IMG/VR virus record: IMGVR_UViG_3300035670_000996
Span: 1-29,177 of that record
Reading direction: 5' to 3' (one strand)
Length of the DNA: 29,177 bases
Source of the DNA: a virus
Position numbers and translations under genes: made by a program. A model generated the notes under the pieces. It was not told the DNA's origin. It saw only the letters and a program-made list of their open reading frames with translations, and searched no databases. Positions 3,496 through 29,177 of the stretch are shown here, piece by piece (position 1 is the stretch's first letter; each line of letters starts with the position of its first letter).

Positions 3496-3918
3496 ATGTC
3501 CCCGCGTCGTCCCCTGTCCCCTGCCCAACTGAACCTCCTACGCGTCCGGCGAGAACTGACCGCCCGTCGGCGCTGGCTCTGGAAGCACAAGCGAGACCTG
3601 ATGCTCAAGACCCAGCAGGCCGCCACCGCCAAGGCAACCGAAGTACGGCAGGACGTGAACGCCGCGATCCTCGAGACCGTCCGCACCTGGCCGCCCACCC
3701 TGACACCGGCGCAGCTCGACGAGCACCTCCTCGTCTTCCCCTATCACCGCAAGGGCAAGAAGCGGCGCATGAGACGAGACTCGCTGATCCGCCGGCTTCG
3801 CCTGTTAGGGCTCATCGAATACATCCCGAGGACTAACACCTGGTTCAACCTTTGCACGTTGCCCCCGTCAAAACCTTCTGCACCGTCCCAGATGAATGAC
3901 CAAGGCCCGACTGAATGA
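3496..3918 (+). CDS. Basic protein of unknown function, possible winged helix
   Basis: I do not recognise this 140-residue protein. The first 60 residues are rich in Arg and Lys and likely helical. The second half (TPAQLDEHLLVFPYHRKGKKRRMRRDS followed by a helix, then GLIEYIPRTNTW) reads like a winged-helix fold: helix, basic turn, helix, then a beta wing. It may bind nucleic acid. It lies between the AT-rich inverted repeat and another HTH protein whose start overlaps it by 23 bases. Position between replication and packaging genes is compatible with a regulatory role, but no sequence match supports this. Confidence 0.55.
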   Translation: MSPRRPLSPAQLNLLRVRRELTARRRWLWKHKRDLMLKTQQAATAKATEVRQDVNAAILETVRTWPPTLTPAQLDEHLLVFPYHRKGKKRRMRRDSLIRRLRLLGLIEYIPRTNTWFNLCTLPPSKPSAPSQMNDQGPTE

Positions 3919-4414
3919 CCTGACCGCTCCGGCGGACGAGGCACGTTCGTTCGACGCGTGGTTCTTCTCCCAGCCTAAGAAGGTGCAGGAGAAGATGCGC
4001 AACGCCGGCGTGCTGCCTTATCGCGAGATGGTTCAGTCCCGACACGTCTTCAAGGTCAAGGACGAGCACGTCGCCTGGATGAACACGAACCGCGAGGAGC
4101 ACGTCGAGGTCGACGCCTTCATCTCCCGCGATCTCGTGGCCGTGATGCTCAAGGCCTTCATCGACGCCCTGGCCATGTCCGACAACTTCTACTTCCGCCG
4201 GCACGTCGAGCTCATCCGCTGGGCGCTCAGTCTTCCCGGCTGTCTGTCCTCGCGTATGATCGCACGGATGTACGGCAAGAGCCATGAGGCCATGCGCAAG
4301 CGTGCCCGGGCAATCCAGCTCTCCGTCAACTCCGACGCCCACGGCCTGTTCCCTCACTGCAACTCCAAGCGAGATAAGATGCGCGTGAGTTTCGACCATC
4401 GTAACCGCTCATAA
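3896..4414 (+). CDS. HTH protein preceding the packaging module (possible late regulator)
   Basis: The product has 172 residues. A helix-turn-helix is visible at about 117-142 (LSSRMIARMYGKSHEAMRKR), where an 'iA..yGkS.eAm.kR' pattern marks turn and recognition helix. The N-terminal 100 residues are alpha-helical with charged patches and are not recognised. It is the last gene before the non-coding block and terminase genes, the position that late regulators such as lambda Q occupy in lambdoid phages. That functional idea rests on position only. It might equally be a terminase-associated DNA-binding protein. Confidence 0.6.
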   Translation: MTKARLNDLTAPADEARSFDAWFFSQPKKVQEKMRNAGVLPYREMVQSRHVFKVKDEHVAWMNTNREEHVEVDAFISRDLVAVMLKAFIDALAMSDNFYFRRHVELIRWALSLPGCLSSRMIARMYGKSHEAMRKRARAIQLSVNSDAHGLFPHCNSKRDKMRVSFDHRNRS

Positions 4415-4560: not shown

Positions 4561-4573
4561 ATTTTGACCAAAA
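4553..4573 (+). promoter_or_regulatory. TTTTGAC element with a TTTTG/CAAAA dyad before terS
   Basis: AAAAGAGGATTTTGAC (4553-4568) resembles the AAAAGA-TTTGAC strings ahead of the helicase gene and of the small gene at 22403. Here TTTTG (4562-4566), AC and CAAAA (4569-4573) form a perfect dyad. It lies 40 bases ahead of the terS ATG and may be a promoter -35 region or operator. No -10 box is clear. Confidence 0.3.
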
Positions 4574-7077: not shown

Positions 7078-7100
7078 ACCTTGCGACATTAAAGGCAAGC

Positions 7101-7158
7101 GGCGGCGTCTATGGTTGCGGGAAGAAGAGCTCGTGGCGTGGATATAGGCGTCGCCGCC
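7101..7158 (+). promoter_or_regulatory. Long-range hairpin between terL and the gpW-like gene
   Basis: GGCGGCG (7101-7107) is the exact reverse complement of CGCCGCC (7152-7158), with partly pairing CTAT/ATAG just inside. No T-tract follows; instead a TTGCCAAT element begins seven bases later. It may fold in the 110-base leader of the gpW-like gene. Confidence 0.4.
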
Positions 7159-7164
7159 CCCTCC

Positions 7165-7187
7165 GTTGCCAATTACCGCAAGATTAA
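7165..7187 (+). promoter_or_regulatory. TTGCCAAT start element, copy 1
   Basis: TTGCCAAT (7166-7173), TACC, GCAAGATTAA, then ATG at 7188. The GCAAGA part takes the Shine-Dalgarno position. This is the only copy with GCAAG in place of GCAGG. Confidence 0.75.
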
Positions 7188-7442
7188 ATGGCACAAGGTA
7201 TCTTCATCGGCCTGACGGAATGCGAGCTCCTCGACCTCAAGGCGAAGGCTCTTTCGCTCATCATGGACGGAAAGACCCTCATGTCTTACTCCGACTCCGG
7301 CTCGTCGGCGACGAAGCAGTTCGCCCTGCCTCCGAAGGAGATGCTCAATGAAGCGATGTACGCCCTCAGCCGACTCGACCCGAAGAAGTACGGTCGCCGC
7401 ACGACGATGATCTACTCCCGCTGGGACAATCGTTACGAATAA
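7188..7442 (+). CDS. gpW-like head-tail joining protein
   Basis: The product has 84 residues. Residues 11-70 (ECELLDLKAKALSLIMDGK, a short strand pair around Ser-Tyr-Ser, then ALPPKEMLNEAMYALSRLD) match the gpW layout of helix, beta hairpin and helix. A basic C-terminus (KKYGRR) follows. In lambda, gpW sits under the portal after packaging and prepares the head for tail joining. Position between terL and portal is the same as in lambda. The start is set by the preceding TTGCCAAT element. Only four bases separate it from the portal gene. Confidence 0.75.
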   Translation: MAQGIFIGLTECELLDLKAKALSLIMDGKTLMSYSDSGSSATKQFALPPKEMLNEAMYALSRLDPKKYGRRTTMIYSRWDNRYE

Positions 7443-7445
7443 CTT

Positions 7446-8942
7446 ATGGCCCCCCGCAAGAAAGACCAGAAGCCCGCCAAGTCTTCCGCGAGGAAGAAGC
7501 CGACGACCGCGCCTCAGGCCGCGTCCGGGCCGACGTTCAACAACCAGTACAGCGGCAACCAGTGGGGCTCGACCATCCAGACCTACGCCCGCCGCGTCAT
7601 CTACGCTCCGCAGCCGGACGACCTACGCCGCGACCTCTCGCCCTGGGATCGCAACGAGATGGTCAAGAAGTGCCGCTGGGCCGAGCGCGAGTCCGCCCTG
7701 TTCCGCCAGATCCTGAACGACCTCTGCATCTACGTCGTCGGCGACGGCATCAAGCCTCAGTCCCACGCGGACAACCCCGAGACCTCCCGCCTTTACGAGG
7801 AGTATTTCGCCCGTCAGGCCAAGCGCATCGACGTCTCCGGCAAGTCTTTCTATCAGTGTCAGGCCATCCTCATCCGCGCGCTCATCCGTGACGGCGACGC
7901 CTTCGCCCTGAAGGTCGTCAACGGCGACCGCGCCCAGGTGCAGGTCGTCGAGGCGCATCGAGTGGGAGACCCTACGGACGCCGACACCCCTTCGGACTGC
8001 TGGGACGGCATCGGCTTCGGCAAGTATAACGAGCCGATTTACTACAACGTCTACAAGGCCGACGGCTCCTCGAAGAAGATTGAGGCCCAGTCCGTTATGC
8101 ACGTCATCGACACCGAGACGGCCTCGGGCTCCCGCGGCGTGCCGGTGCTTCAGTCCTCGCTCAACAGCATCCAGGACGTGAAGGAGCTGCTCGAAATCGA
8201 ACGCAGGGCGTGTAAGGACAATGGCGACGTAAATCGCGTAATCTACAAGGGCTCAGGCTTCCTCGACGACGACGCGGCTTCCGAGATCGCGTCGAACCAC
8301 AACTCCGCCGAGAACATCGCCAGCCAGATGGGCGGAAAGACCATCGTGCTCGAGAGCACAGACCGCTTCGAGAGTTTCGAGAGCAAACGCCCGAACAGCA
8401 CCTTCGTCGGCTTCCTTGCGGCGCTGGAGAAAGACATCTGCTCCGTCCTGCCTTACGAGTTCGTCAAGGACGTCACCGCCGCCGGCGGGGCAGGGGTGCG
8501 TCTGGTCACCGCGAAGAGCGCACGGGTCTTCGGGAAATATCAGAACGTGATCGTGGAGGCCTTCTGCCAGCCTACCTGGGAGTACATCATCGCCGACGGC
8601 ATCGCCAAGGGCGAGATCCCCGACGACCCCCGCTGGTGGTCTGCCTCCTGGACGACCCCGAAGTCCGTCACCGTCGACGCCGGCCGTGAAGCCGCGAACG
8701 ACCGTGCCGACATCGAGATGGGCCTGATGTCCATGTCTGAGCTCTACGGCCAGCGCGGCCTCGACTTCCGCTCCGAGATGGAGAAGCGGGCCGCCGACAT
8801 GGCGCACATCCAGAACCTGGCGAAGCAGTACGGCATCCCGTTCGAGCTGCTCTTCCGCCCGACGAACACCCCTCTCGGCACGGTCGCCGCGGTCGACACC
8901 GCCGAACCGCTCCCCGGCACCAACCTTAACGAAAAGAAATAA
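7446..8942 (+). CDS. Portal protein, lambda gpB family
   Basis: The product has 498 residues, typical for lambda-type portals. A basic disordered N-terminus of about 25 residues precedes the body. Typical features include the RWAERESALFRQILNDLCIYVVGDGI helix and strand near 75-100, a VEAHRVGDPTD strand near 175, and SRGVPVLQSSL near 230, the conserved segment preceding the clip/stem helices. Twelve copies would form the DNA entry channel at one capsid vertex, to which terminase docks. It lies between gpW-like and protease genes as in lambda, and its stop overlaps the protease start by one base. Confidence 0.9.
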   Translation: MAPRKKDQKPAKSSARKKPTTAPQAASGPTFNNQYSGNQWGSTIQTYARRVIYAPQPDDLRRDLSPWDRNEMVKKCRWAERESALFRQILNDLCIYVVGDGIKPQSHADNPETSRLYEEYFARQAKRIDVSGKSFYQCQAILIRALIRDGDAFALKVVNGDRAQVQVVEAHRVGDPTDADTPSDCWDGIGFGKYNEPIYYNVYKADGSSKKIEAQSVMHVIDTETASGSRGVPVLQSSLNSIQDVKELLEIERRACKDNGDVNRVIYKGSGFLDDDAASEIASNHNSAENIASQMGGKTIVLESTDRFESFESKRPNSTFVGFLAALEKDICSVLPYEFVKDVTAAGGAGVRLVTAKSARVFGKYQNVIVEAFCQPTWEYIIADGIAKGEIPDDPRWWSASWTTPKSVTVDAGREAANDRADIEMGLMSMSELYGQRGLDFRSEMEKRAADMAHIQNLAKQYGIPFELLFRPTNTPLGTVAAVDTAEPLPGTNLNEKK

Positions 8943-9733
8943 TGCGCTTCCTATCCCATGCTCTCAAGGGCCGTGAGCCGATGCTCATCGACCCGTCCAA
9001 GGCCCAAGACCACGCGGCGCTCGCCGAGAAGTTCGGCTTCTCCGACATGCTAGCGCAGCTCTTCGGCGTGGCCCCTGCCCCCTATATCCAGGACGGCGTC
9101 GGCGTCATCCCTGTCGCCGGCGTGATCGGCAAAGGCCTATCGCCCCTCGAGAAGATGATGGGCGCGGTCGACGTGAACGACCTGTCGGCCACGGTCGACG
9201 CGATGGCGGCCGACCCTGCGGTCGAGAAGATTGCCTTCAACATCTCCTCCCCTGGCGGCACGGTGACGGGCGTCGAGGAACTGGCCAACAAGATCCGCGA
9301 CCTCGGCAAGCCGACGATGGCTTACACGGACAGCGAGATGGCTTCGGCAGCTTACTGGCTCGGCTCTCAGGCAGACCGAGTCGTGGCCAGCCCGTCGGCT
9401 ACCGTGGGCTCCGTAGGGGTCTACATGGCCATCCCTGACATGTCCAAGCTCTACGAGTCGCAGGGCGTCCGCATGGTCGTCATCAAGTCCACGGGCTCCC
9501 CGCTGAAGGGCGCCGGCATCGAGGGCACGTCCCTCTCCGACGAGCAGATGGCCGACCTCCAAGCCTCGGTTGACGGCATCCACGAAGACTTCAAGGCCGC
9601 CATCCGTGCCAAGCGCAAGATGGTCGCCGACTCCGCCCTGCGTGGTCAGGTCTTCTCCGGCAAGCAGGCCGCCGCCCAGGGGCTCGTCACCGGGCTGGCC
9701 GACTCTTTCTCCGCCGCCCTCCGTTCGTTCTGA
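8942..9733 (+). CDS. S49-family prohead protease (lambda gpC-like)
   Basis: The product has 263 residues. The SppA/ClpP fold is evident from GVIPVAGVIG (about 54-63), FNISSPGGTVTG (99-110), MASAAYWLGSQAD (133-145, nucleophile probably S135), and SATVGSVGVYMAIPDM (152-167). The general base is probably K189 in SPLKG, by spacing to the bacterial SppA Ser-Lys dyad. It would cleave scaffold, portal or capsid termini during head maturation. Its stop and the next ATG overlap as TGATG. Unlike lambda C, the scaffold is not at its own C-terminus but in the next ORF. Confidence 0.88.
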   Translation: MRFLSHALKGREPMLIDPSKAQDHAALAEKFGFSDMLAQLFGVAPAPYIQDGVGVIPVAGVIGKGLSPLEKMMGAVDVNDLSATVDAMAADPAVEKIAFNISSPGGTVTGVEELANKIRDLGKPTMAYTDSEMASAAYWLGSQADRVVASPSATVGSVGVYMAIPDMSKLYESQGVRMVVIKSTGSPLKGAGIEGTSLSDEQMADLQASVDGIHEDFKAAIRAKRKMVADSALRGQVFSGKQAAAQGLVTGLADSFSAALRSF

Positions 9734-10992
9734 TGGCGATCGCCGTCCCAGACTACGTCGCCGAGGCGGCCAAGCGCGGGCTTGCGTGGCACGCCGAAGG
9801 CAAGTCGGGCGACGGCGTGACGGACAAGACCATCCGCGAAGCCCGCGAGATGGCGGCCGGCGAAGTCTCCGAAGACAAGCTGCGCCGCATGGGCCCATGG
9901 TTCGAGCGTCACCGCCCGGACATGGACGCCCCGAAGAACAAGCCGTCGAACGAAGACTTCCCAGGAGCAGGCGCCGTTGCGTGGGCTCTCTGGGGTGGCC
10001 CGACCTCTGGCGACATCATGCGCACCGCGGACTGGTGCAAGGCCAAGGTCGAGAAGCTCGACCGCGAGGCCGGAGCCTCCGCCCTTTCCTCCCCTAAGAC
10101 TTTAACCCAAATCGACACAACTATGCCTCGCATCTTCACCGACATCGACGACACGATCATCAAGGACGGCCAGCCCGTCGAGCGCGTCGTCAAGTTCATC
10201 GACGAGACCGCCGAAGAGGTGGTTGTCCTGACCAACCGCCCCGAGTCCGACCGCGAGAAGACCGTGGCCGACCTCGCCGCCATCGGCTTTGAGTTCGACG
10301 AGCTCATCATGAACGACGGCACGGAGGAGGCTCCGGCCTTCAAGTCCCGCGTCATCAAGGAACGCCTGGACAATGGCGAGCGCGTCGACCTGTTCATCGA
10401 CAACCGTGCCGACACCCGCGACGCCGTCGCCGCCCTGGGCGTCGAGGTCATGGCCCCCGAGGACGTTCCTGAGGTCGTCGACGAGGAAGAAGAGGTCGAA
10501 GACGAGGTCGATGAGGAGGTCGCTCCCGAGGCCAAGGTTGCCAATTCCCGCAGGACTAAGATGACCATCGAAGAACAGCTCGTCCAGGCCGCGGCCTCGC
10601 TCGCCGGCCTCACCGCTGAACGCGACGACCTCCGCGCCACCGTGGAGAAGCTGACCGTCGGCGCCACGACCGAAGCCGAAGCGCTCAAGGTCGAAGCCGC
10701 CGCCAAGGATGCGAAGCTCGCCGAACTGACCGCCGCCCTCGAAGCCTCCGCCAAGGAAGCCTCCGAGCTGAAGGCCAAGGTCGCCGAGCTCGAAGCCGGT
10801 CAGGCCAGCGCCTCGAAGGAAGCCGCCAAGATCGTCGCCTCCTTCGGCACCGAGCCCGTCGAACTGCCCAAGGGCGACTCGCCCGCGAAGATGAGCGCCG
10901 CCGACATCAAGGCCGCTTACCTCGCGATGGCCGCCGGCCCTGCCCGCATCGCCTTCTTCAACGCCCATAAGGCCTCCCTCCTTTCCCTCTAA
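9733..10992 (+). CDS. Three-part protein: conserved phage N-domain, HAD phosphatase-like domain, scaffold-like coiled coil
   Basis: The ORF encodes 419 residues in three blocks. Residues 1-127 include MGPWFERHRPDMDAPKNK and a VAWALWGG segment, a pattern I associate with phage head-module proteins of unknown role. Residues 131-240 show all HAD motifs: D137-x-D139 in TDIDDT, T167 in VLTNRP, K204, and D223-N224 with D227. An acidic linker (245-265) leads to residues 277-419, a long Ala/Glu/Lys coiled coil with a compact C-terminus, as in scaffolds. In-frame ATGs occur at 10123 and 10561, each preceded by sequence that looks like an intergenic leader, so shorter nested products are likely. Whether the full-length chain accumulates is unknown. 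Confidence 0.8.
   Translation: MAIAVPDYVAEAAKRGLAWHAEGKSGDGVTDKTIREAREMAAGEVSEDKLRRMGPWFERHRPDMDAPKNKPSNEDFPGAGAVAWALWGGPTSGDIMRTADWCKAKVEKLDREAGASALSSPKTLTQIDTTMPRIFTDIDDTIIKDGQPVERVVKFIDETAEEVVVLTNRPESDREKTVADLAAIGFEFDELIMNDGTEEAPAFKSRVIKERLDNGERVDLFIDNRADTRDAVAALGVEVMAPEDVPEVVDEEEEVEDEVDEEVAPEAKVANSRRTKMTIEEQLVQAAASLAGLTAERDDLRATVEKLTVGATTEAEALKVEAAAKDAKLAELTAALEASAKEASELKAKVAELEAGQASASKEAAKIVASFGTEPVELPKGDSPAKMSAADIKAAYLAMAAGPARIAFFNAHKASLLSL
10537..10560 (+). promoter_or_regulatory. TTGCCAAT start element, copy 2, in frame inside an ORF
   Basis: TTGCCAAT (10538-10545), TCCC, GCAGGACTAAG, then ATG at 10561. In the long ORF these bases are read as VANSRRTK. The element marks an internal start, with GCAGG six bases from the ATG. 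Confidence 0.75.
10561..10992 (+). CDS. Nested scaffolding protein from an internal in-frame start (Nu3-like arrangement)
   Basis: ATG 10561 is codon 277 of the longer ORF and would give a 143-residue protein, MTIEEQLVQAAASLAGLTAE and onward. It is almost wholly heptad-like coiled coil rich in Ala, Glu and Lys, with a short folded C-terminus (AYLAMAAGPARIAFFNAHK). That composition, and its place directly before the major capsid gene, fit an internal scaffold that guides capsid assembly and is later removed by the S49 protease. Lambda makes Nu3 in the same nested way, but from within the protease gene. The TTGCCAAT-GCAGG element directly upstream is the main evidence that this start is used. 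Confidence 0.7.
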   Translation: MTIEEQLVQAAASLAGLTAERDDLRATVEKLTVGATTEAEALKVEAAAKDAKLAELTAALEASAKEASELKAKVAELEAGQASASKEAAKIVASFGTEPVELPKGDSPAKMSAADIKAAYLAMAAGPARIAFFNAHKASLLSL

Positions 10993-11015
10993 CCCTCACT
11001 CCCTAACACACTACC

Positions 11016-11894
11016 ATGGCTACCGTCCTCCCTACCGCCCCGGCTATCCTGTCTGACTACATCGTCCAGACCGTCGCCGGCAAGCTGCCCATCCTCAACA
11101 ACGTCTCCGTCAACCTCTCGGCCTCCGTCGGCCGCGCTGGCAAGACCGTCTTCGTCCCGATCATGGGCGCCGGCACTGCCTCCGAGTTCAACAAGGCCAC
11201 CAACACCCTGGCCGACGTCGACGGCGCGACGATGACCGACTCCTCGGTCACCCTCAAGCACTTCAAGTACGTCGATGAGTTCAGCCCCCTGGACATCCAG
11301 GAGTACGGCATGCAGTACCTCATCAACGCCTACGCCAAGACCGCCGCTCAGGCCATCGTCGACAAGACCTGGGCCGAAATCGGCTCCGTCTTCACCGCGG
11401 CCAACTACGCCACGGAAGAGACCGTCGCCCTCGTCGACTTCGGTTATGACGACGTGACCCAGGCCCAGTTCCTCCTCGACGGCGCCAAGGCCGGCGAGCC
11501 CCGCTCCTTCCTCGTGGGCAACGGCTACCTCAAGAGCCTCCGCAACGACTCGAAGATCTACGGCTCCCTCAACCCGGCTGCCAACGCCGTCGTGACCTCC
11601 GGCTCCGTCGGTCAGGTCGCCGGCATGGACATCTACCAGTGGAACCAGATCCCGGCCAACGGTGAAAACCTGGCGGGCGTGGCCATGGGCCCGGACTCGC
11701 TCCTCGTGGCGACCGGCATCCCGATGGCTGAGATCGCGGGCTTCAACGCCAGCGTCTCGACCGCCGAGTCCGGCCTCTCCGTGCAGGTGCTCGTCGGCCA
11801 GGCCGAAACGGGCAACATCCGCTGCATCTCGCAGATCCTCGTCGGCGCCGCCAAGGGCCGTTCGACGAGCCTCGTCCGCTACGTCACCGCCTAA
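11016..11894 (+). CDS. Major capsid protein, HK97 fold
   Basis: The product has 292 residues. The N-arm (APAILSDYIVQTVAGKLPIL) leads to VNLSASVGRAGKTVFVPIMG, the E-loop/beta strand region, then TLKHFKYVDEFSPLDIQEYG and the spine helix with AKTAAQAIVDKTWAEIG. The FLVGNGYLKSLRND and DIYQWNQIPANGEN segments resemble A-domain elements of P22-coat-like and related HK97-fold capsid proteins. Its position after the scaffold and before a strong terminator supports the role. The leader (CCCTAACACACTACC before ATG) has no Shine-Dalgarno sequence, odd for the most abundant virion protein. Confidence 0.88.
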   Translation: MATVLPTAPAILSDYIVQTVAGKLPILNNVSVNLSASVGRAGKTVFVPIMGAGTASEFNKATNTLADVDGATMTDSSVTLKHFKYVDEFSPLDIQEYGMQYLINAYAKTAAQAIVDKTWAEIGSVFTAANYATEETVALVDFGYDDVTQAQFLLDGAKAGEPRSFLVGNGYLKSLRNDSKIYGSLNPAANAVVTSGSVGQVAGMDIYQWNQIPANGENLAGVAMGPDSLLVATGIPMAEIAGFNASVSTAESGLSVQVLVGQAETGNIRCISQILVGAAKGRSTSLVRYVTA

Positions 11895-11915
11895 GCGGCC
11901 TGACGAGCTCAGAAC

Positions 11916-11943
11916 AGACCCCCAGCGATGGGGGTCTTTTTTT
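11916..11943 (+). terminator. Strong intrinsic terminator after the major capsid gene
   Basis: AGACCCCC (11916-11923) pairs with GGGGGTCT (11930-11937) around the loop AGCGAT, and T's run from 11937 to 11943. It lies 21 bases past the capsid stop. It would end or reduce transcription before the tail genes, raising capsid mRNA relative to tail mRNA. Confidence 0.9.
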
Positions 11944-11949
11944 GTGCCC

Positions 11950-11970
11950 TTTGCCAATCTCCGCAGGGTT
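11950..11970 (+). promoter_or_regulatory. TTGCCAAT start element, copy 3
   Basis: TTGCCAAT (11951-11958), CTCC, GCAGGGTT, then ATG at 11971. It begins seven bases after the T-tract of the capsid terminator and fixes the start of the FII-like gene. Confidence 0.75.
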
Positions 11971-12348
11971 ATGAGTTTGTACGCTGAGTTCCTGCCCGAC
12001 GCGAAGGAGATGGTCGCCGACTTCGGCGTGGCCGGTTCGGCCAACTCGGGAGCGATTACATTCGCCTGCCTCATCTCAGACCCCGCCGTCTCGACCGTGC
12101 TCGAAGCAGGGGGCTACATGGAGCGTACCCAGTACAACGTCCGCCTCCCCGCCGCAACGGCCTCCTGGAGCCTCCCAGATGGGTCTATTGGGGCATCCAC
12201 GGCCATCATCAGCGGCGGCTCGGTCATCCCCTCCCTCGCCCAGGGCAAGAAGATCGTGGCCGGCGGGAAGAACGTCCGCATCACGACCCAGTCCTATAAG
12301 CCCGGGTCGGCGTGGGTAACCCTCGTCGTCATCGACGATAACCAGTAA
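11971..12348 (+). CDS. Head-tail connector, FII-like
   Basis: The product has 125 residues. It opens with a helix (LYAEFLPDAKEMVADFG), and the C-terminal half is beta-rich, with the spaced pattern GKKIVAGGKNVRITTQSYK then AWVTLVVID typical of FII-type head-completion proteins, in which a small barrel ends the chain. Such proteins form the ring between the portal and connector and the tail. An in-frame ORF extends upstream to 11662 through the capsid gene region and terminator, but ATG 11971 directly follows the TTGCCAAT element and is the credible start. The stop overlaps the next ATG by one base. Confidence 0.72.
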   Translation: MSLYAEFLPDAKEMVADFGVAGSANSGAITFACLISDPAVSTVLEAGGYMERTQYNVRLPAATASWSLPDGSIGASTAIISGGSVIPSLAQGKKIVAGGKNVRITTQSYKPGSAWVTLVVIDDNQ

Positions 12349-13310
12349 TGCCGGCTAAGGTCTCCATCGAGCCGAAGTCCCTTGCGGAGTTCGTGGAGGC
12401 CTGCCGTCAGTTCGCGGCCGGGGCAGGCATCGCCATGCGAGACGCCGTCCTCGAGCAGGCGGCCTTTGCTTGTCAGGACGCTGCCACCTTTACCCCTCCC
12501 CTGGTCAAGGGAGGCGGCGGAGGCCTAAAGCCTGGGGCGAAGAGGGCAGGCCGTGAGGCCGTCGCCGGCGATGTCTCTAAAATCTTCGTGGCCGCTAATG
12601 ACTCCTCGGCAAAGGGCGTAGCTGGAAACCTCGTCAATCAGATTGCCTTCGCCGTGAAGACGGGCGACTTCGGCACCTTCTCCCGGCTGACCGACGGAGG
12701 CAAACTGTCCGGCATGCTAGGCCAGCGCAGCATCCTCTCGAAGATCGCGGCGGACTCGGACAAGCAGCGGGCCTTTGCCAAGGCCAAGAACTTCCTCAAC
12801 CGTGCCAACCCCGTAAAGAGTGAATACGGCACGCAAGGCTTCGTCCGAGACATCCGCACCATCCACGACCAAGTGAAGGGCAAGTACGGCGGCCGCATCA
12901 AGAAGGGTATCCGCCCGGTCACAGCGAAGTTACTCGTGCAGGACAAGTCAGAGTTGCAGGAATACATCGAGCGCCGCCAGCAGATGGTCGGCCTCATCAA
13001 GTCAGGATGGGCCAAGGCCCTCGCCGGCCTGCCTAAGCCCAAGGACAACAACGGCCAGCAGGGCGAGCCTGGCGCTCAGCTGCGCAAGGCCTCATGGGTC
13101 ACCTTGCATTCGGGAGTTCCTGGGACTAACGTCTCGACGTTCACCGACAAGGTGGCGGAAGTTTCCGTGACCAATACCCTTGGCAACATCAACAGCATCG
13201 CAGACGAGGCAGGAGTCCTCGGTCTGGTCTACGGCAACCGCGTGAAGCAGATGCCCGCGATGATCCGTTACCGCATGCGCAAACCAATTAACAAGTTTAA
13301 CCGTAAATAA
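12348..13310 (+). CDS. Minor tail protein, gpZ-like (tail completion)
   Basis: The product has 320 residues, longer than the 190-residue lambda gpZ. The N-terminal helix (SLAEFVEACRQFAAGAG...VLEQAAFACQDAATFTPP) followed by a Gly-rich turn is characteristic of gpZ/HK97 gp10-type tail completion proteins, which bear an early amphipathic helix and a 'TPPLVKGGG' turn. The C-terminus (NTLGNINSIADEAGVLGLVYGNR...MRYRMRK) resembles the family's basic end. The middle includes a Lys-rich stretch. Its order, after FII and before gpU-like, equals lambda FII-Z-U. The assignment rests on pattern and position. Confidence 0.62.
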   Translation: MPAKVSIEPKSLAEFVEACRQFAAGAGIAMRDAVLEQAAFACQDAATFTPPLVKGGGGGLKPGAKRAGREAVAGDVSKIFVAANDSSAKGVAGNLVNQIAFAVKTGDFGTFSRLTDGGKLSGMLGQRSILSKIAADSDKQRAFAKAKNFLNRANPVKSEYGTQGFVRDIRTIHDQVKGKYGGRIKKGIRPVTAKLLVQDKSELQEYIERRQQMVGLIKSGWAKALAGLPKPKDNNGQQGEPGAQLRKASWVTLHSGVPGTNVSTFTDKVAEVSVTNTLGNINSIADEAGVLGLVYGNRVKQMPAMIRYRMRKPINKFNRK

Positions 13311-13312
13311 CC

Positions 13313-13747
13313 ATGTCCACCCGCTCCATCCGCCACGTCGTCGAGGCGACCCTCGCCACCTACCTCTCCGCCCAGTCCGGCCTAGCCGGCGTGCAGATCC
13401 TGACGGGCGACAGCGCCGTCACTCAGACCCTGCCCAAGGCCGTCGTCCTCTGCGACTCAGCCCGGGCTCCTGCCGACCTCCCCGAAGGCCTCGGTAACTA
13501 CGACTGCTCCGTCCGCATCACCCTTTTCTCGAACGCCGACGACACGACCTTGGCTGTCCACCGTGAGCGCTGCGCGGCCATCGCCGGCAACATGCGAGAC
13601 CTCGACTCAATCCAAGCGGCCTTCGTGGCATCAGGGGACGCGACCTGCTACGACGTGACCTACCGATCCGAGGACGAAGGGGTAGACGAGCGCTCCTGGG
13701 CGACGTCCTTCGCCTTCGACATCCTGACCGTCCTGCCTCCCGCCTGA
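13313..13747 (+). CDS. Tail terminator, gpU-like
   Basis: The product has 144 residues, close to lambda gpU (131). An N-terminal helix (IRHVVEATLATYLSAQSG) is followed by alternating strands (KAVVLCDSA, CSVRITLFSNAD) and a helix with HRERCAAIAGNMRD, then a final strand WATSFAFDILTVLPP. This order of helix, mixed sheet and a C-terminal 'fdi.v.P' strand is common to tail terminators, which cap the tail tube and join it to the head. Between gpZ-like and tube genes it holds the expected place. Confidence 0.65.
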   Translation: MSTRSIRHVVEATLATYLSAQSGLAGVQILTGDSAVTQTLPKAVVLCDSARAPADLPEGLGNYDCSVRITLFSNADDTTLAVHRERCAAIAGNMRDLDSIQAAFVASGDATCYDVTYRSEDEGVDERSWATSFAFDILTVLPPA

Positions 13748-13750
13748 GCG

Positions 13751-13774
13751 GTTGCCAATTAAAGCAGGAGTAAG
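13751..13774 (+). promoter_or_regulatory. TTGCCAAT start element, copy 4
   Basis: TTGCCAAT (13752-13759), TAAA, GCAGGAGTAAG, then ATG at 13775. This copy has the best Shine-Dalgarno match (GCAGGAG, four bases from the ATG). Confidence 0.75.
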
Positions 13775-14155
13775 ATGAGCGAAGTAAACAACGGCGTTGT
13801 CTGCCTCTACGGAATTGGCGCTGGCCAAGTAGCCTCCCTTTACGTCCAGAGCTACTCCGTTAGCTCCGGCTTCAACAACACAGGCACGGTGGTGGACGAA
13901 GAAGGCAACACGGTGACCGCCCGTTATGACGACCGCCGCTCCGAGATCACGGTCGAGGGCGTGGCCAAGGCCACCTCCGTTCCGCAGCTCGGCGCGACCC
14001 TCACCTTCACCGCGAAGACCGCTTCGGCCTATCCTGGCGGCGCCGCTTCGGTCAGCTTCTCGGGAACTGTGACCAAGGTCGACGACCGTGGCACGAGCAA
14101 GGGTTTCGTCAGCGTCTCGGTGACTGCTGAGTCCTACGAGCTCATCACCTACTAA
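13775..14155 (+). CDS. Tail tube protein candidate (gpV position)
   Basis: The product has 126 residues and is predicted almost all beta: VCLYGIGAGQVASLYVQSYSV, then a FNNTGTVVDEEGNTVTARYDD hairpin, SEITVEGVAKATS, and VSFSGTVTKVDDRG. Small beta-sandwich proteins with a 'DeeGNtv...y....eitv.g' core are common among tail tube and tube-initiator folds. The gene is in the lambda V position, after the terminator-like gene and before chaperone and tape measure, and it carries a well-formed start element, fitting a high-copy tube subunit. It could also be a related tail-tip barrel. Confidence 0.6.
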   Translation: MSEVNNGVVCLYGIGAGQVASLYVQSYSVSSGFNNTGTVVDEEGNTVTARYDDRRSEITVEGVAKATSVPQLGATLTFTAKTASAYPGGAASVSFSGTVTKVDDRGTSKGFVSVSVTAESYELITY

Positions 14156-14180
14156 TTGACACGCCCGCAAGGGGAGTAGT
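14156..14180 (+). promoter_or_regulatory. TTGACA box in the gap between tube and chaperone genes
   Basis: TTGACA (14156-14161) starts one base after the tail tube stop. The only candidate -10 sequence at the right spacing (GTCTCA) is poor, so promoter activity is uncertain. AAGGGGAG at 14169-14176 could be a distant Shine-Dalgarno sequence for GTG 14190. Confidence 0.25.
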
Positions 14181-14189
14181 CTCAAGGGA

Positions 14190-14762
14190 GTGGATCGTCG
14201 CTTCCTGAACGCACACATCGACCCGGCGCCTTTTCGGCTGCTGGGTCGAACTCTTTACCCGTGGTGCCTCAAGTACCGCGTGCGCCTGCATGGGTTCGAC
14301 TCTCCTCTAGTTACTGGTTCAAGAAGTGTTACTCCAGCCGACTTGCTGTTCGCCTGCCAAGTCTGCGCGGAGGAGCCGCTTGGGAATGTCAGTATATTTG
14401 ACAGGGCGAGAATAGTGTATCTTTCAAACAATCCGTATAAGTTTGAGGAGACAGTAAAAGCCTTTGCCGGATACATTCTCGTGGACAACTGGCCGAAGTT
14501 CTGGGAGCAAGACGGAAAGAAGAATGGGGGAAGTAAGGGGCTGCCATGGCCGATGAGTATCGTCGCTAATTTAGTGGCGAACGGCGTGCCCTATAAGCAA
14601 GCCTGGGAGATGCCTGAGTGTCAGGCCATCTGGCTGAACTCGGCTTTTGCAATTCGCAAGGGGATAGACGTGGCGATCATGTCGCCCGAGGAGGAGGCCT
14701 TCATCGAGTCTCAGCTGAAGGTCGGCGAAGGGGAAGCCCCCGTTGCCAATCCCGCAGGATAA
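14190..14762 (+). CDS. Tail assembly chaperone candidate
   Basis: The product has 190 residues from a GTG start. It is mainly helical, with a C-terminal segment YKQAWEMPECQAIWLNSAFAI followed by MSPEEEAFIESQL, a pattern seen in chaperones encoded just before tape measures, where a short helix pair ends at an acidic tail. In lambda these are gpG/gpGT. I see no second ORF in position for a classic -1 frameshift product, so it would act as a single form. Codon use from about 14340 on is visibly more AT-rich than upstream genes. The final codons (PVANPAG, stop) coincide with the next TTGCCAAT element. Confidence 0.58.
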   Translation: MDRRFLNAHIDPAPFRLLGRTLYPWCLKYRVRLHGFDSPLVTGSRSVTPADLLFACQVCAEEPLGNVSIFDRARIVYLSNNPYKFEETVKAFAGYILVDNWPKFWEQDGKKNGGSKGLPWPMSIVANLVANGVPYKQAWEMPECQAIWLNSAFAIRKGIDVAIMSPEEEAFIESQLKVGEGEAPVANPAG

Positions 14763-14765
14763 AGA
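14742..14765 (+). promoter_or_regulatory. TTGCCAAT start element, copy 5
   Basis: TTGCCAAT (14743-14750), CCC, GCAGGATAAAG, then ATG at 14770. This copy has a three-base spacer, and its bases also encode the last residues and stop of the chaperone candidate. It selects ATG 14770 over the in-frame TTG at 14743. Confidence 0.72.
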
Positions 14766-14769
14766 GCCC

Positions 14770-15555
14770 ATGGCCCAAGACCTGACCGTAAACATCAAGA
14801 CGACCTCCGACGTCCCCAAGGCGATGGAGAAGTCTAAGTCCGCCGTCGTATCCTTTTCAAAGCAAGTCGAGGACATCCAGAAGAAGTTCAGCACAACGTT
14901 CAAGGACGTCTTTCTATCATTCCTTGGCCCTATGGCACTTATCACTGGAGCCATTGCTATCATCTCAAAAATGATTGCTGATAGCCAGCGCAAACAGGAA
15001 GAAGCCACAAGGGCTGCCATTGAAGGAACAAATGAATTGATGTCGGCAGAGGATAGGTATTGGGCAAGGAAACAAGACAGAGAAAAGAAGGCTAAGCAGA
15101 CGATTGAGGAAGCAGAGACTGCCCGTATTACCATCACACGCGAGTTCCTTGATAAGGATCCAAGGGGTCGTCAGATGCTTTTTGATTTCGCCGAACAGCA
15201 GCGCAAGACCGGGGGAACATATGGCCCTGACGCCGCATCGAAAGATAAGGCAATGCAGGATAAGATACAGGCGCTAATCGCCGAAGAAGCGAAAAAGAAC
15301 CCTTTGCCAGAAGATACATCAAAGGCTGCATCTGAAAAGGCCGGCTCCTTCAAGGGCCCTGAGGGCTTCGGCACGGTCGTCGGCGTCGGCGCCAATCCCG
15401 TCATGGAGGCCATGACCCGCCAGAACGAAATCCTCGAGGAGATTAAACTCATCCTCCAGGAGCAGAGCATCCTCGACCGCACGGGCGTCGGCGTGCCTCC
15501 TCCCTTCACCGACCGCGCCGTCCCGCTGACCGCAGCCAAGGAGGGCGTGGCATAA
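14770..15555 (+). CDS. Short tape measure protein candidate
   Basis: The product has 261 residues and is helical throughout: a heptad-rich N-terminus (AMEKSKSAVVSFSKQVEDIQ), one hydrophobic helix at 47-66 (VFLSFLGPMALITGAIAIIS), a long charged helix to about 130, and a C-terminus NPVMEAMTRQNEILEEIKLIL, a helix like those closing tape measures. Gene order (chaperone, then this, then tail-tip genes) supports the call. With about 0.15 nm of tail per residue, as in lambda, it predicts a tail near 40 nm, very short for a siphovirus. The first two thirds have lower GC and different codon use from neighbours. Confidence 0.6.
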   Translation: MAQDLTVNIKTTSDVPKAMEKSKSAVVSFSKQVEDIQKKFSTTFKDVFLSFLGPMALITGAIAIISKMIADSQRKQEEATRAAIEGTNELMSAEDRYWARKQDREKKAKQTIEEAETARITITREFLDKDPRGRQMLFDFAEQQRKTGGTYGPDAASKDKAMQDKIQALIAEEAKKNPLPEDTSKAASEKAGSFKGPEGFGTVVGVGANPVMEAMTRQNEILEEIKLILQEQSILDRTGVGVPPPFTDRAVPLTAAKEGVA

Positions 15556-15559
15556 CTTT

Positions 15560-16435
15560 ATGGCACAAGTAGCAAACGGAAAGACCCTTCTGACCGCCGA
15601 GATCCAGCCAGGCTGGACGGTGCAGTCTGACGGCTTCGGCCTCATCACGTCGACGACGACCTATAAGGCCGACATCGCGGCTCCCATCAGCTCGTTCGAG
15701 CGCGGCCAGCCCCACCCCGACCCTTTCTACTCTTACCTCAAGGCGCACAAGTACCAGATCTCCTGGGACAACCTCCGTTACAAGACCATCAAGGTGGACT
15801 ACGTCGGCATCGACCCGGATGTAAACAGCGGCATCCGCACGCTCGCCAACACCTCCGTCGCGAACGGCCTGACCGCCGAGAACATCACGACCCACCCTAA
15901 CTTCTTCGAGGCCGCTGGTGGCTATACCGTCGGCCCGATCGCCGGCAAGCCATCGGACTTCGGTGGCGCTTACGACGACTCGACCCTAGGGCCTCTGGTT
16001 CAAGTCCTGGCGGTCGACGGCCCCAAGAAAGGCCTACCCGTCGTCGTCCCTTCCTGCGAAGGATACAACGGCGCCTGCTTCGAGACCGGGCAGGGCGGCC
16101 GCTTCATCGGCTTCGTCGACCCCGCTATCAAATACCTCTACGGCAAGACCCAGTACCTCGCCCCGACGACGACCTACTCGGGCGTCATGTACACGACTTC
16201 GGTCACCGATGTTCAAGCTCTTTACGGCCTGCTAAACTCGGCGACGGCTACCAACTCTTGGGGCTCTGCCTTTCCTCTTATCCCAGCGTGGGGCCCGACT
16301 GGTGCCGGCGCCTGGGGCAACAAGAACCTCCTCTCCCAGGTCAACGTCGAGGAGTACGGCTCGCTGTACAAGGTCATCTACGAGATCCGTTACTCGAAGG
16401 AAGGCTGGCCGCCCGACGTCTACGCGAACATCTGA
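15560..16435 (+). CDS. Tail-tip structural protein of unknown family
   Basis: I do not recognise this 291-residue protein. It is rich in Tyr, Gly, Thr and Trp, with beta-strand character and few Lys- or Arg-rich stretches, typical of virion proteins. Features include ISSFERGQPHPDPF (about 44-57), a VVVPSCEGYNGACFETG loop with two Cys near 165-175, and a C-terminal strand YKVIYEIRYSKEGWPPD. The place, directly after the tape measure, suggests a distal-tail or baseplate component, as lambda M/L or siphovirus Dit would be. It is separated by three bases from a second protein of similar size and composition. Confidence 0.6.
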   Translation: MAQVANGKTLLTAEIQPGWTVQSDGFGLITSTTTYKADIAAPISSFERGQPHPDPFYSYLKAHKYQISWDNLRYKTIKVDYVGIDPDVNSGIRTLANTSVANGLTAENITTHPNFFEAAGGYTVGPIAGKPSDFGGAYDDSTLGPLVQVLAVDGPKKGLPVVVPSCEGYNGACFETGQGGRFIGFVDPAIKYLYGKTQYLAPTTTYSGVMYTTSVTDVQALYGLLNSATATNSWGSAFPLIPAWGPTGAGAWGNKNLLSQVNVEEYGSLYKVIYEIRYSKEGWPPDVYANI

Positions 16436-16438
16436 GCC

Positions 16439-17347
16439 ATGGCCATCCAACCGGGAACAGGCTATACCTTCACGGCCTCCAGCCAGGGGACGAACCTCAG
16501 CATCCAGACCCCTTGGGGTCAATGGGGCGGAGTGAACGACCAGCAGTATCAGCAGTTCCAATGCCTGGTCTACACGCAGCAGGTAGGCGAGACGACGAAG
16601 CACTTCCTCGCCACGCACAAGGGCGTCGTCAACTACACCTGGAGCCAGTTCCCTTTCAACCCCGACCCGGTCAACGGGAACGCCTTCCGCACGTTCGAGA
16701 AGCAGGCCCGCATCACGGACTGGGCGGTCTACGAGAACGGCAAGCGCACGGCCGGCACGGCCACCGATGGCCCGGACTTCGAGTGGTTCGCGGGCGGCGG
16801 GAAGATTGAACTGCCCACCGGCGCCTCGGGCAAGTCCGTGGTCGTCACGATCAGCAAGATCGACTGGTGGGACAAGGACGGCTGGCTTGCCGCCTATCGA
16901 ACCATCGACGCCGAGAAGCCGTTCGTCTCGGTCTTCGACGCGGCCGACACTAACATCAACGCCATCCTGAGCCAGCAGGGGAACACGGCGTGGGCTTCGC
17001 CTATATTCTACCAGAACAACCTGTACGCAATGACCTACGGGCCTCCCTATCCGACTTGGATTGGCTACACGGTCAAGAAGATCGCGCAGCTCGACTGGAA
17101 CGACACGACGAACTCCTGGGACGTGACGCAGTATCTCGTCGGCCCCATCGACCTGCCCATTCAGCACATGATTGGGGAGGCAATTTTAGACCCAGCAGGA
17201 GAGGCACCTACTCCGTCCCTTTACGAGACCTACCTAGGCGACGAGTTCAACACCTGCCTCAACTATGCATGGTTCGAGAGCATGTGGGCATACCCTGGCT
17301 ACACGATGAACCCGTCGGCTTGGTGGTACGACATCGTGAACACCTGA
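16439..17347 (+). CDS. Second tail-tip structural protein of unknown family
   Basis: The product has 302 residues and is not recognised. It is Trp- and Tyr-rich (PWGQWGG near 25-31, WSQFPFNPD near 69-77, WWDKDGWLAAY near 142-152, AWWYDIVNT at the C-terminus), with beta-rich segments and no enzyme motif. Its size and style resemble the previous gene product, so the two may form one tail-tip complex. No large lambda J-like hub protein is encoded downstream, so these two proteins probably do the work of hub and adaptor between tail tube and fibre. Start ATG 16439 follows the previous stop by three bases without a strong Shine-Dalgarno sequence. Confidence 0.6.
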   Translation: MAIQPGTGYTFTASSQGTNLSIQTPWGQWGGVNDQQYQQFQCLVYTQQVGETTKHFLATHKGVVNYTWSQFPFNPDPVNGNAFRTFEKQARITDWAVYENGKRTAGTATDGPDFEWFAGGGKIELPTGASGKSVVVTISKIDWWDKDGWLAAYRTIDAEKPFVSVFDAADTNINAILSQQGNTAWASPIFYQNNLYAMTYGPPYPTWIGYTVKKIAQLDWNDTTNSWDVTQYLVGPIDLPIQHMIGEAILDPAGEAPTPSLYETYLGDEFNTCLNYAWFESMWAYPGYTMNPSAWWYDIVNT

Positions 17348-17350
17348 CCC

Positions 17351-17374
17351 CTTGCCAATCGGGGCAGGGGTAAG
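17351..17374 (+). promoter_or_regulatory. TTGCCAAT start element, copy 6
   Basis: TTGCCAAT (17352-17359), CGGG, GCAGGGGTAAG, then ATG at 17380. This is the last copy; none occurs in the fibre, lysis or early genes. Confidence 0.75.
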
Positions 17375-17379
17375 ACCCG

Positions 17380-17700
17380 ATGAGCTGCTCTAACACCGTA
17401 ACCATCTCGCAGGGCAACACGTTCGCCTGCACCTTTACCTGGACTCCCGGAGCGAGCGGCCCTGCTGACCTGCTGACCACGACCCTGACCTCGACCGTCG
17501 AAGACCGGGCCGGCAAGACCTACGAGCTCACGATCACCAAGGCGGTCGACGGCCTGTCCTTCACCGCGGTCTACCCTGGCTCGACCGAAGAGTGGGTCAT
17601 CGGCCTAGGTCGCTGGGACATCAAGTTCGTCTTCCCCGGCGACACCATCTCTCGCACGGAAATCTTCCGCGTCAACGTCATCGACAGCGTCACCGTCTAA
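17380..17700 (+). CDS. Small beta-sandwich tail/baseplate protein preceding the fibre
   Basis: The product has 106 residues with an immunoglobulin-like strand pattern: NTVTISQGNTFACTFTW, LLTTTLTSTVEDRAG, YELTITKAVDGLSFTAVY, WVIGLGRWDIKFVFPG and a final TEIFRVNVIDSVTV. The 'i.qGdtf...f.w' beginning and 'GrwDik..ypg' near the end are typical of small phage proteins encoded just before fibres, sometimes likened to baseplate BppU N-domains. It may link fibre to tail tip. It has the full start element and lies nine bases ahead of the fibre gene. Function is inferred from fold style and position. Confidence 0.58.
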   Translation: MSCSNTVTISQGNTFACTFTWTPGASGPADLLTTTLTSTVEDRAGKTYELTITKAVDGLSFTAVYPGSTEEWVIGLGRWDIKFVFPGDTISRTEIFRVNVIDSVTV

Positions 17701-28900: not shown

Positions 28901-29177
28901 GCAACATGTCCGCCCCGACCCTTGTCCTGATCTCCGGCTTCGCAAGGGCGGGGAAGGACACCCTCGCCACGGGCATCCTCGAATGGGCACGGCGCCCGTC
29001 CCGTAAGACGAACTTCGCCGACTACCTCAAGGACGCCGCGAACGACTACCTCCTCTCCCTCAACCTGGAGGGCAACTTCCATAACGAGGAGTTCAAGGTA
29101 AGGCACCGCGACTTCCTCGTGGCCGCCGGCAAACTCGCCCGCTCCCTCGACGTCGACATCTTCGCGAAGAACCTCGC
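28897..29177 (+). CDS. Deoxynucleoside monophosphate kinase, N-terminal part (continues at position 1)
   Basis: The first 93 residues end at the contig edge. The P-loop GFARAGKDT (14-22) has the GKD form typical of phage dNMP kinases related to T4 gp1. The frame continues through the repeat into 1-428, giving about 193 residues in total. ATG 28897 overlaps the previous stop as ATGA. It supplies dNDPs for phage DNA synthesis. The early gene run (SSB-like, HTH, kinase, phosphoesterase, helicase) is continuous across the contig join. Confidence 0.84.
   Translation, partial: MSNMSAPTLVLISGFARAGKDTLATGILEWARRPSRKTNFADYLKDAANDYLLSLNLEGNFHNEEFKVRHRDFLVAAGKLARSLDVDIFAKNL
29051..29177. repeat. Terminal direct repeat, right copy
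   Basis: Identical to 1-127. Removing one copy gives a circle of 29,050 bp with an intact kinase gene. Confidence 0.95.

Follow-up and report, generated by a model that had tools for sequence, protein, structure and literature searches.

A two-box element at the start codons of phage head and tail genes, possibly a near-leaderless late promoter with a co-varying helix-turn-helix protein

The virus record IMGVR_UViG_3300035670_000996, analysed here from position 1 to 29,177 (the window, 29,177 nucleotides in full), carries a short, oriented two-box element, TTGCCAAT-N4-GCAGG, directly before six start codons in its head and tail genes. The same set of genes carries the element in diverged clades of related phages, where its versions change in concert, the base 8 nt past the G of GCA is a conserved A, and the element co-occurs and covaries with gp3896, a helix-turn-helix (HTH) open reading frame (ORF) of 172 aa lying just upstream of terS (3896..4414, + strand) and proposed as the reader of the element. 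In our estimation the chances are about even that these sites are near-leaderless late promoters placed at start codons and read by gp3896. We hold with slightly less assurance, somewhat short of even, that they represent a new class of late promoter, lacking -10 and -35 hexamers, in which two boxes one helix turn apart are paired with a new HTH family and protein and sites diverge together.

In the proposed mechanism, a phage-specific late promoter would sit on the start codon itself. The TTGCC and GCA boxes, whose centres are 11 bp apart, roughly one helix turn, would be read as DNA by gp3896, and transcription would begin at the conserved A, leaving the start codon at the 5' end of the mRNA or a few nt from it, so that the message would be leaderless or near-leaderless. 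Every copy would head a gene block, the later genes of which would be expressed mostly via translational coupling. Recognition of DNA rather than RNA, recruitment of RNA polymerase and the start position are inferred. The +8 boundary, the free spacing to the start codon, the covariation with the HTH protein, the terminator context and a parallel in phage P8625 together favour a promoter on the start codon. Changing in step with a putative DNA-binding protein, the element looks like a promoter switch and not like a ribosome-binding site.

Exact copies of TTGCCAAT start at 7166, 10538, 11951, 13752, 14743 and 17352, all on the + strand, against a mean of 0.31 and a maximum of 2 in dinucleotide shuffles of the window; the six positions listed in an earlier note on this DNA, made from the letters alone, are thereby confirmed. 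The spacing described there is likewise correct: GCAGG (GCAAG at 7166) follows after 4 bases (3 at 14743), and the ATG lies 22, 23, 20, 23, 27 and 28 nt from the first T for copies 1 to 6, within the 20-28 nt given. The TAAG said to follow usually is exact at 10538, 13752 and 17352 only, the other copies showing TTAAA, TTATG and ATAAAG. The base 8 nt past the G of GCA is A at all six copies and coincides at 11951 with the A of the ATG. No additional copy with the full architecture was found in the window. Its last 127 bases (29051-29177) are a direct repeat of the first 127 (1-127), and the contig is a complete, circularly assembled phage genome of about 29.05 kb; six is therefore the full copy count of the genome.

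Copy 1, TTGCCAAT-TACC-GCAAGATTAA (7166..7187), precedes ORF 7188-7442 between terL and the portal gene. Copy 2 (10538..10560) lies inside the longer open frame 9733-10992, where it marks an internal in-frame start at 10561, that of the putative scaffold; its box within the coding sequence uses the rare codons GTT (6% of Val) and AAT (10% of Asn). The putative scaffold (10561-10992) is thus the in-frame C-terminal part of ORF 9733-10992, the N-terminal part of which matches polynucleotide kinase-like families; many clade B genomes have the scaffold immediately after the protease instead. Copy 3 (11951..11970) stands directly past an intrinsic terminator (11916..11945, + strand) that separates it from the major capsid gene (11016..11894, + strand; major head protein in PHROGs), and clades A-E, H and I have a terminator in the same position. 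Copy 4 (13752..13774) precedes the putative tail tube gene (13775-14155), copy 5 (14743..14765), with its 3-nt spacer, overlaps the 3' end of ORF 14190-14762 ahead of the putative tape measure gene (14770-15555), and copy 6 (17352..17374) precedes ORF 17380-17700. The labels gpW-like, FII-like, tape measure and Ig-like attached to marked genes by the earlier note are mostly positional, PHROGs giving no named hit for them.

Beside copy 1, the intergenic region between terL and ORF 7188 is filled by a 60-nt hairpin (7099-7157) in which a 3' bulge, GGCGUGG, and a 5' CAAG are conserved. In all 39 relatives of less than 85% identity the folding energy is -34 to -44 kcal/mol, RNAalifold reports two-sided changes in 9 of the 19 pairs, and Rfam holds no match to the hairpin, which looks like an undescribed structured RNA.

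Viral contigs were scanned for TTGCCAATNNNNGCAGGNNTAAG, which yielded at least 117 stretches, and further clades were added by terminase- and gp3896-based scans. Among the matches listed in those stretches, almost all of the 433 TTGCCAAT copies precede an ATG in the same few genes, while their 4-nt spacers and 5' flanks are variable; across hundreds of relatives the element is retained before the same genes. The sister clade B has the same gene order, a capsid protein 44-48% identical and most other proteins 40-85% identical, and carries no TTGCCAAT element; the same six genes are preceded by TTCCA(A/T)(T/A)-N3/4-GCA(A/T)...TAAG, with the 3-nt spacer kept at the tape-measure copy. The corresponding versions are TT(G/T)AC-N7-CCAAG in clade C, TTGCC-N7-GCA in clades H and I, TTGCC-N7-CCAAG in the L406 group and TTGACT-N3-GCGTAG in clade X (L329). 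Judged by these comparisons, the element is a start-associated signal in diverged clades, each with a version of its own.

A single version is used at all sites of a genome, with mixing only in L063, a mosaic with an A-type copy within a B-type genome, and L333. In L179 the G of GCA is altered at all six sites; a scan for this version gave 27 stretches, and none among those read was shown to be a second contig. Such concerted change is what one trans-acting reader imposing the sequence would produce, and a trans-acting factor, suggested in the earlier note as a host or phage translation factor, probably reads the element. Pairing with rRNA would be expected to impose one common sequence on related phages; it is disfavoured by the differing versions and appears unlikely, since these differ even between near clades.

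The starts of homologous genes were counted over all loci by regular expressions drawn up once the sequences had been inspected. Many loci also differ little from one another, and the counts are therefore descriptive and are not independent trials. For the six marked genes 95-100% of homologous starts carry the element: it precedes the homologs of ORF 7188 at 220 of 220 starts, the scaffold at 227/240, ORF 11971 at 247/256 (the misses being variants outside the expression or a mis-set start), the tube gene at 229/237, the tape measure at 199/202 and ORF 17380 at 129/130. Across the six genes most misses are variants outside the regular expression. The remaining eight tube loci have an intact element 31 nt farther upstream, and L473, L474 and L476 appear to lack it at the tape measure. 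At other starts the element is absent or nearly so: capsid 0/249, g12348 0/247, g16439 0/117, fibre 0/46, portal 2/209 and protease 1/224.

The marked genes nearly all head their translationally coupled blocks, and the unmarked ones mostly start 1-6 nt past the upstream stop. This relation is seen directly at g13313, usually an element-free gene that follows the upstream stop by 1-6 nt. All 25 loci with a gap of more than 10 nt, or with an extra stretch in between, have gained a B-type element, as judged by eye, the regular expression being too strict; loci with gaps of up to 10 nt give just seven pattern matches, each a chance match within the last part of the coding sequence upstream. The gain would suit an element needed for translation, and just as well a rule by which any gene outside coupling must have a near-leaderless promoter of its own. 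That translation alone does not need the element is suggested by the capsid gene, which is uncoupled, has a G-poor leader and lacks the element. The leader of this gene (10993-11015) is almost free of G in all clades, clade X and P8625 included.

The element was read in the earlier note as a composite ribosome-binding site, and this is not supported by the variation observed. The GCAGG of clade A, itself only partly a Shine-Dalgarno (SD) core, is GCAA or GCAT in clade B. SD matches of at least 4 nt are frequent in clade A at the scaffold, the tube gene and ORF 17380; in clade B they fall to 0-8% at ORF 7188, the scaffold, ORF 11971 and the tube gene, and are still frequent at the tape measure and ORF 17380. 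The distance from the G of GCA to the start codon ranges freely, as the length of a leader may, from 8 to 26 nt and reaches 41 nt in some clade B tube genes, where a 31-nt G-poor stretch separates the intact element from the ATG. Complementarity to the anti-SD sequence at a fixed short distance from the ATG was not found as a feature of the element across clades, and the A at +8 is kept whether the ATG is near or far.

Counting the G of GCA as 0, the start codon never lies before +8 (0 of 373 distinct sites) and lies exactly at +8 in 29. Among the 235 sites with the start codon at least 11 nt away, 226 (96%) keep an A at +8. The A consequently belongs to the element: the start codon may coincide with it and never precedes it. 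It is often preceded by a pyrimidine, consistent with a Y-1/R+1 transcription start, and there is little conservation beyond the two boxes and this base. Transcription starting at the A would directly explain the boundary, with a fully leaderless mRNA as the limit. The earlier statement that the element is too close to the ATG for an ordinary promoter is right for sigma70 spacing, no -35/-10 hexamers 16-18 bp apart being present at the six window sites, and leaves out leaderless transcription.

Several candidate RNA structures were rejected. A hairpin formed by the boxes would require TGC/GCA pairing, which is broken in clades B and C and in L179 without compensation. The box could pair with a GGCAA that lies upstream of copy 1 in the window and in a few near relatives, a partner that most relatives lack, and a phage antisense RNA is discounted by the absence of the reverse complement of the 8-mer from the entire genome. 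Rfam gave no match.

Of the 21 loci that contain terS preceded by more than 700 nt of sequence, 19 have the gp3896 gene; L276 and L279, which gave no match, have the shortest upstream stretches, and the L179 contig stops just before the gene. A profile search did not find gp3896 in the complete P8625 genome, in the contigs of P8625 relatives or in L329, and tblastn against 50,697 phage records returned no match. The AlphaFold (AF2) model places the HTH at pLDDT 85-92; the top Foldseek hits are mostly sigmaA region 4, with E values of 0.2 or more and none significant, and Pfam gives weak generic HTH matches in some homologs only (MarR_2, 5.9e-5). Covariation was followed over 52 genomes, counting the residues of the helix string from 0. 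Loss of G3 from the element goes with F or I at residue 3, and a TTGAC box goes with S at residue 6. At residue 8, the four helices paired with CCA all have K, and those paired with GCA have R or M. Between clades A and B, 4 of 14 helix residues show fixed differences, against 14 of 143 elsewhere, a modest excess.

Several observations weigh against a promoter read by gp3896. There is no -10-like sequence; with transcription starting at the A, GCA would occupy -8 to -6 and TTGCC -20 to -16, a geometry that, to our knowledge, matches no promoter of a sigma factor or of a single-subunit polymerase. No gene for an RNA polymerase was recognised in this phage. The window gp3896 has no significant fold or family match, its DNA binding is putative, and the covariation is a lead rather than a proof because the versions are clade markers with few independent changes. 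No conserved element was found upstream of terS, where the first site of a late activator would be expected; TTGAC-N7-GCAA at 4564 was considered and rejected, as it is not conserved in relatives. Finally, the elements stand where translation would need a signal too, and the odd promoter geometry keeps two other readings alive. The first, which we regard as possible and clearly short of probable, is a translation-initiation element, in which a phage protein or the ribosome would bind the mRNA at about -23 to -1 so that uncoupled cistrons can start alone. It is in keeping with the strict orientation of the sites, their constant position before start codons, the block-heading genes and the g13313 gains. 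It is at odds with the variable ATG distance, the non-conserved SD part, the uncoupled capsid gene that lacks the element and the broken hairpin, and sequence variation among related clades makes plain rRNA pairing a poor basis for it; uncoupled genes would, moreover, likewise need their own near-leaderless promoter.

The other reading, rather improbable in our view, is a stoperator-like roadblock, in which gp3896 on oriented DNA sites would halt or slow transcription into each late block. Oriented, asymmetric, start-proximal and mostly intergenic repeats together with an HTH protein of variable helix do recall the cluster A stoperators (PMC9283540), whereas no integrase is seen, no immunity system is known here and the sites are limited to late genes; a roadblock would also account neither for the boundary at the +8 A nor for sites being gained just where coupling is lost. 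A last possibility, to which we give hardly any credence, is that the copies are remnants of one duplicated leader or linkers of module exchange without effect on expression. Six near-identical copies per genome and the L063 mosaic would suit such an origin, but boxes fixed over hundreds of genomes while flanks and spacer vary freely, rare codons held within a coding sequence and versions changing in concert, L179 included, appear largely to rule it out.

A search for the pattern in 84,980 genomes (257 Gb) returned 28 stretches, 26 of which are lone chance matches; the only multi-copy cases, L136 and L144, are phage contigs, and the idea of a host element was rejected. L136 is a contig of a Verrucomicrobiota metagenome-assembled genome (MAG). 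L144 is a short contig of this phage group in the uncultured actinobacterium MAG LaPlata_bin-3933 and is probably mis-binned. The closest named phage is Verrucomicrobia phage P8625 (NC_029047), with a terminase 25% identical. On the strength of the one MAG contig and this distant kinship, the host of these uncultured lake phages is probably a member of the Verrucomicrobiota.

Start-associated repeats have been described in mycobacteriophages since 2011, with a mechanism lacking; the much larger natural set available here, with hundreds of contigs, several specificity versions, one candidate reader with matching helix changes, and gained or displaced sites, opens that question to testing. Should the promoter reading hold, it would add a new promoter architecture and a simple rule for starting late genes in a phage without strong ribosome-binding sites, each late gene beyond the reach of translational coupling receiving its own leaderless or near-leaderless mRNA. 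The element and gp3896 would offer a ready set for protein-DNA specificity, and the motif would help to find and group related uncultured phages.

Among known systems, P8625 and its marine relatives provide a parallel. They carry TTG(A/C)CA-N16/17-TAnnnn-N6/7-ATG, the layout of a leaderless sigma70 promoter, before the portal gene, behind the terminator downstream of the capsid gene, and elsewhere. This pattern is permissive, the other strand giving about as many hits (92 against 89), and the support therefore comes from the fact that the same homologous starts carry it repeatedly, rather than from the raw count. Shared with the present element are comparable late starts, a TTG[AC]C box and an ATG at the predicted transcription start; P8625 differs in its normal -35/-10 spacing and absence of gp3896, whereas the present element lacks a -10 and has a much shorter reach. 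P8625 and L307 also carry a GTATCC..GGATAC operator at predicted promoters, and the P8625 genome paper does not mention promoters. In P8625 (L149), gp13 is annotated to start at a TTG (9620) that resembles a -35 box (TTGCCA-N17-TATTGG-N7-ATG), and translation probably begins at the ATG at 9656; similar promoters with the operator stand before 5448 and 10772, and a weaker one before 15594. In several clades of the present group, ORF 14190 is preceded (14156-14190) by TTGAC-N15/17-TA/CAnnnT-N6/7-(A/G)TG with a dyad in the spacer, possibly a leaderless sigma70-type promoter.

Late regulators of the RinA/ArpU/LTR superfamily are small HTH proteins encoded immediately upstream of terS and are thought to act at one late promoter. 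The place of the gp3896 gene is like theirs; the differences are the lack of a named family match and the six internal start sites at which it would act.

The earlier note knew of no described element of this form, yet the start-associated sequences (SAS/ESAS) of cluster K mycobacteriophages reported by Pope et al. in 2011 are of this kind (PMC3203893), their role still being called ill-defined (PMC3203893, PMC11373665). Like the present element, the SAS is a short, oriented, asymmetric and phage-specific repeat a few nt from the start codons of many genes, mostly those not tightly linked to the upstream gene; the host genome lacks the repeat, which is conserved across subclusters with an ESAS consensus that varies by subcluster. 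Unlike it, the SAS is a single 13-mer, GGGATAGGAGCCC, of unrelated sequence, which contains AGGAG and occurs in non-structural genes; the present element has two boxes, a variable spacer and no conserved SD, is confined to head and tail genes and has a covarying candidate reader. The cluster A stoperators, known from the L5 and TipsytheTRex repressors (PMC9283540), share oriented asymmetric sites, often in short intergenic spaces, and a small phage HTH protein as reader, here putative. They differ in silencing transcription and in being spread genome-wide, whereas six late-gene sites here keep a fixed relation to the start codon, and no repressor or integrase was recognised in this phage. Membership in neither group can be claimed; the SAS and the stoperators are the closest described kinds.

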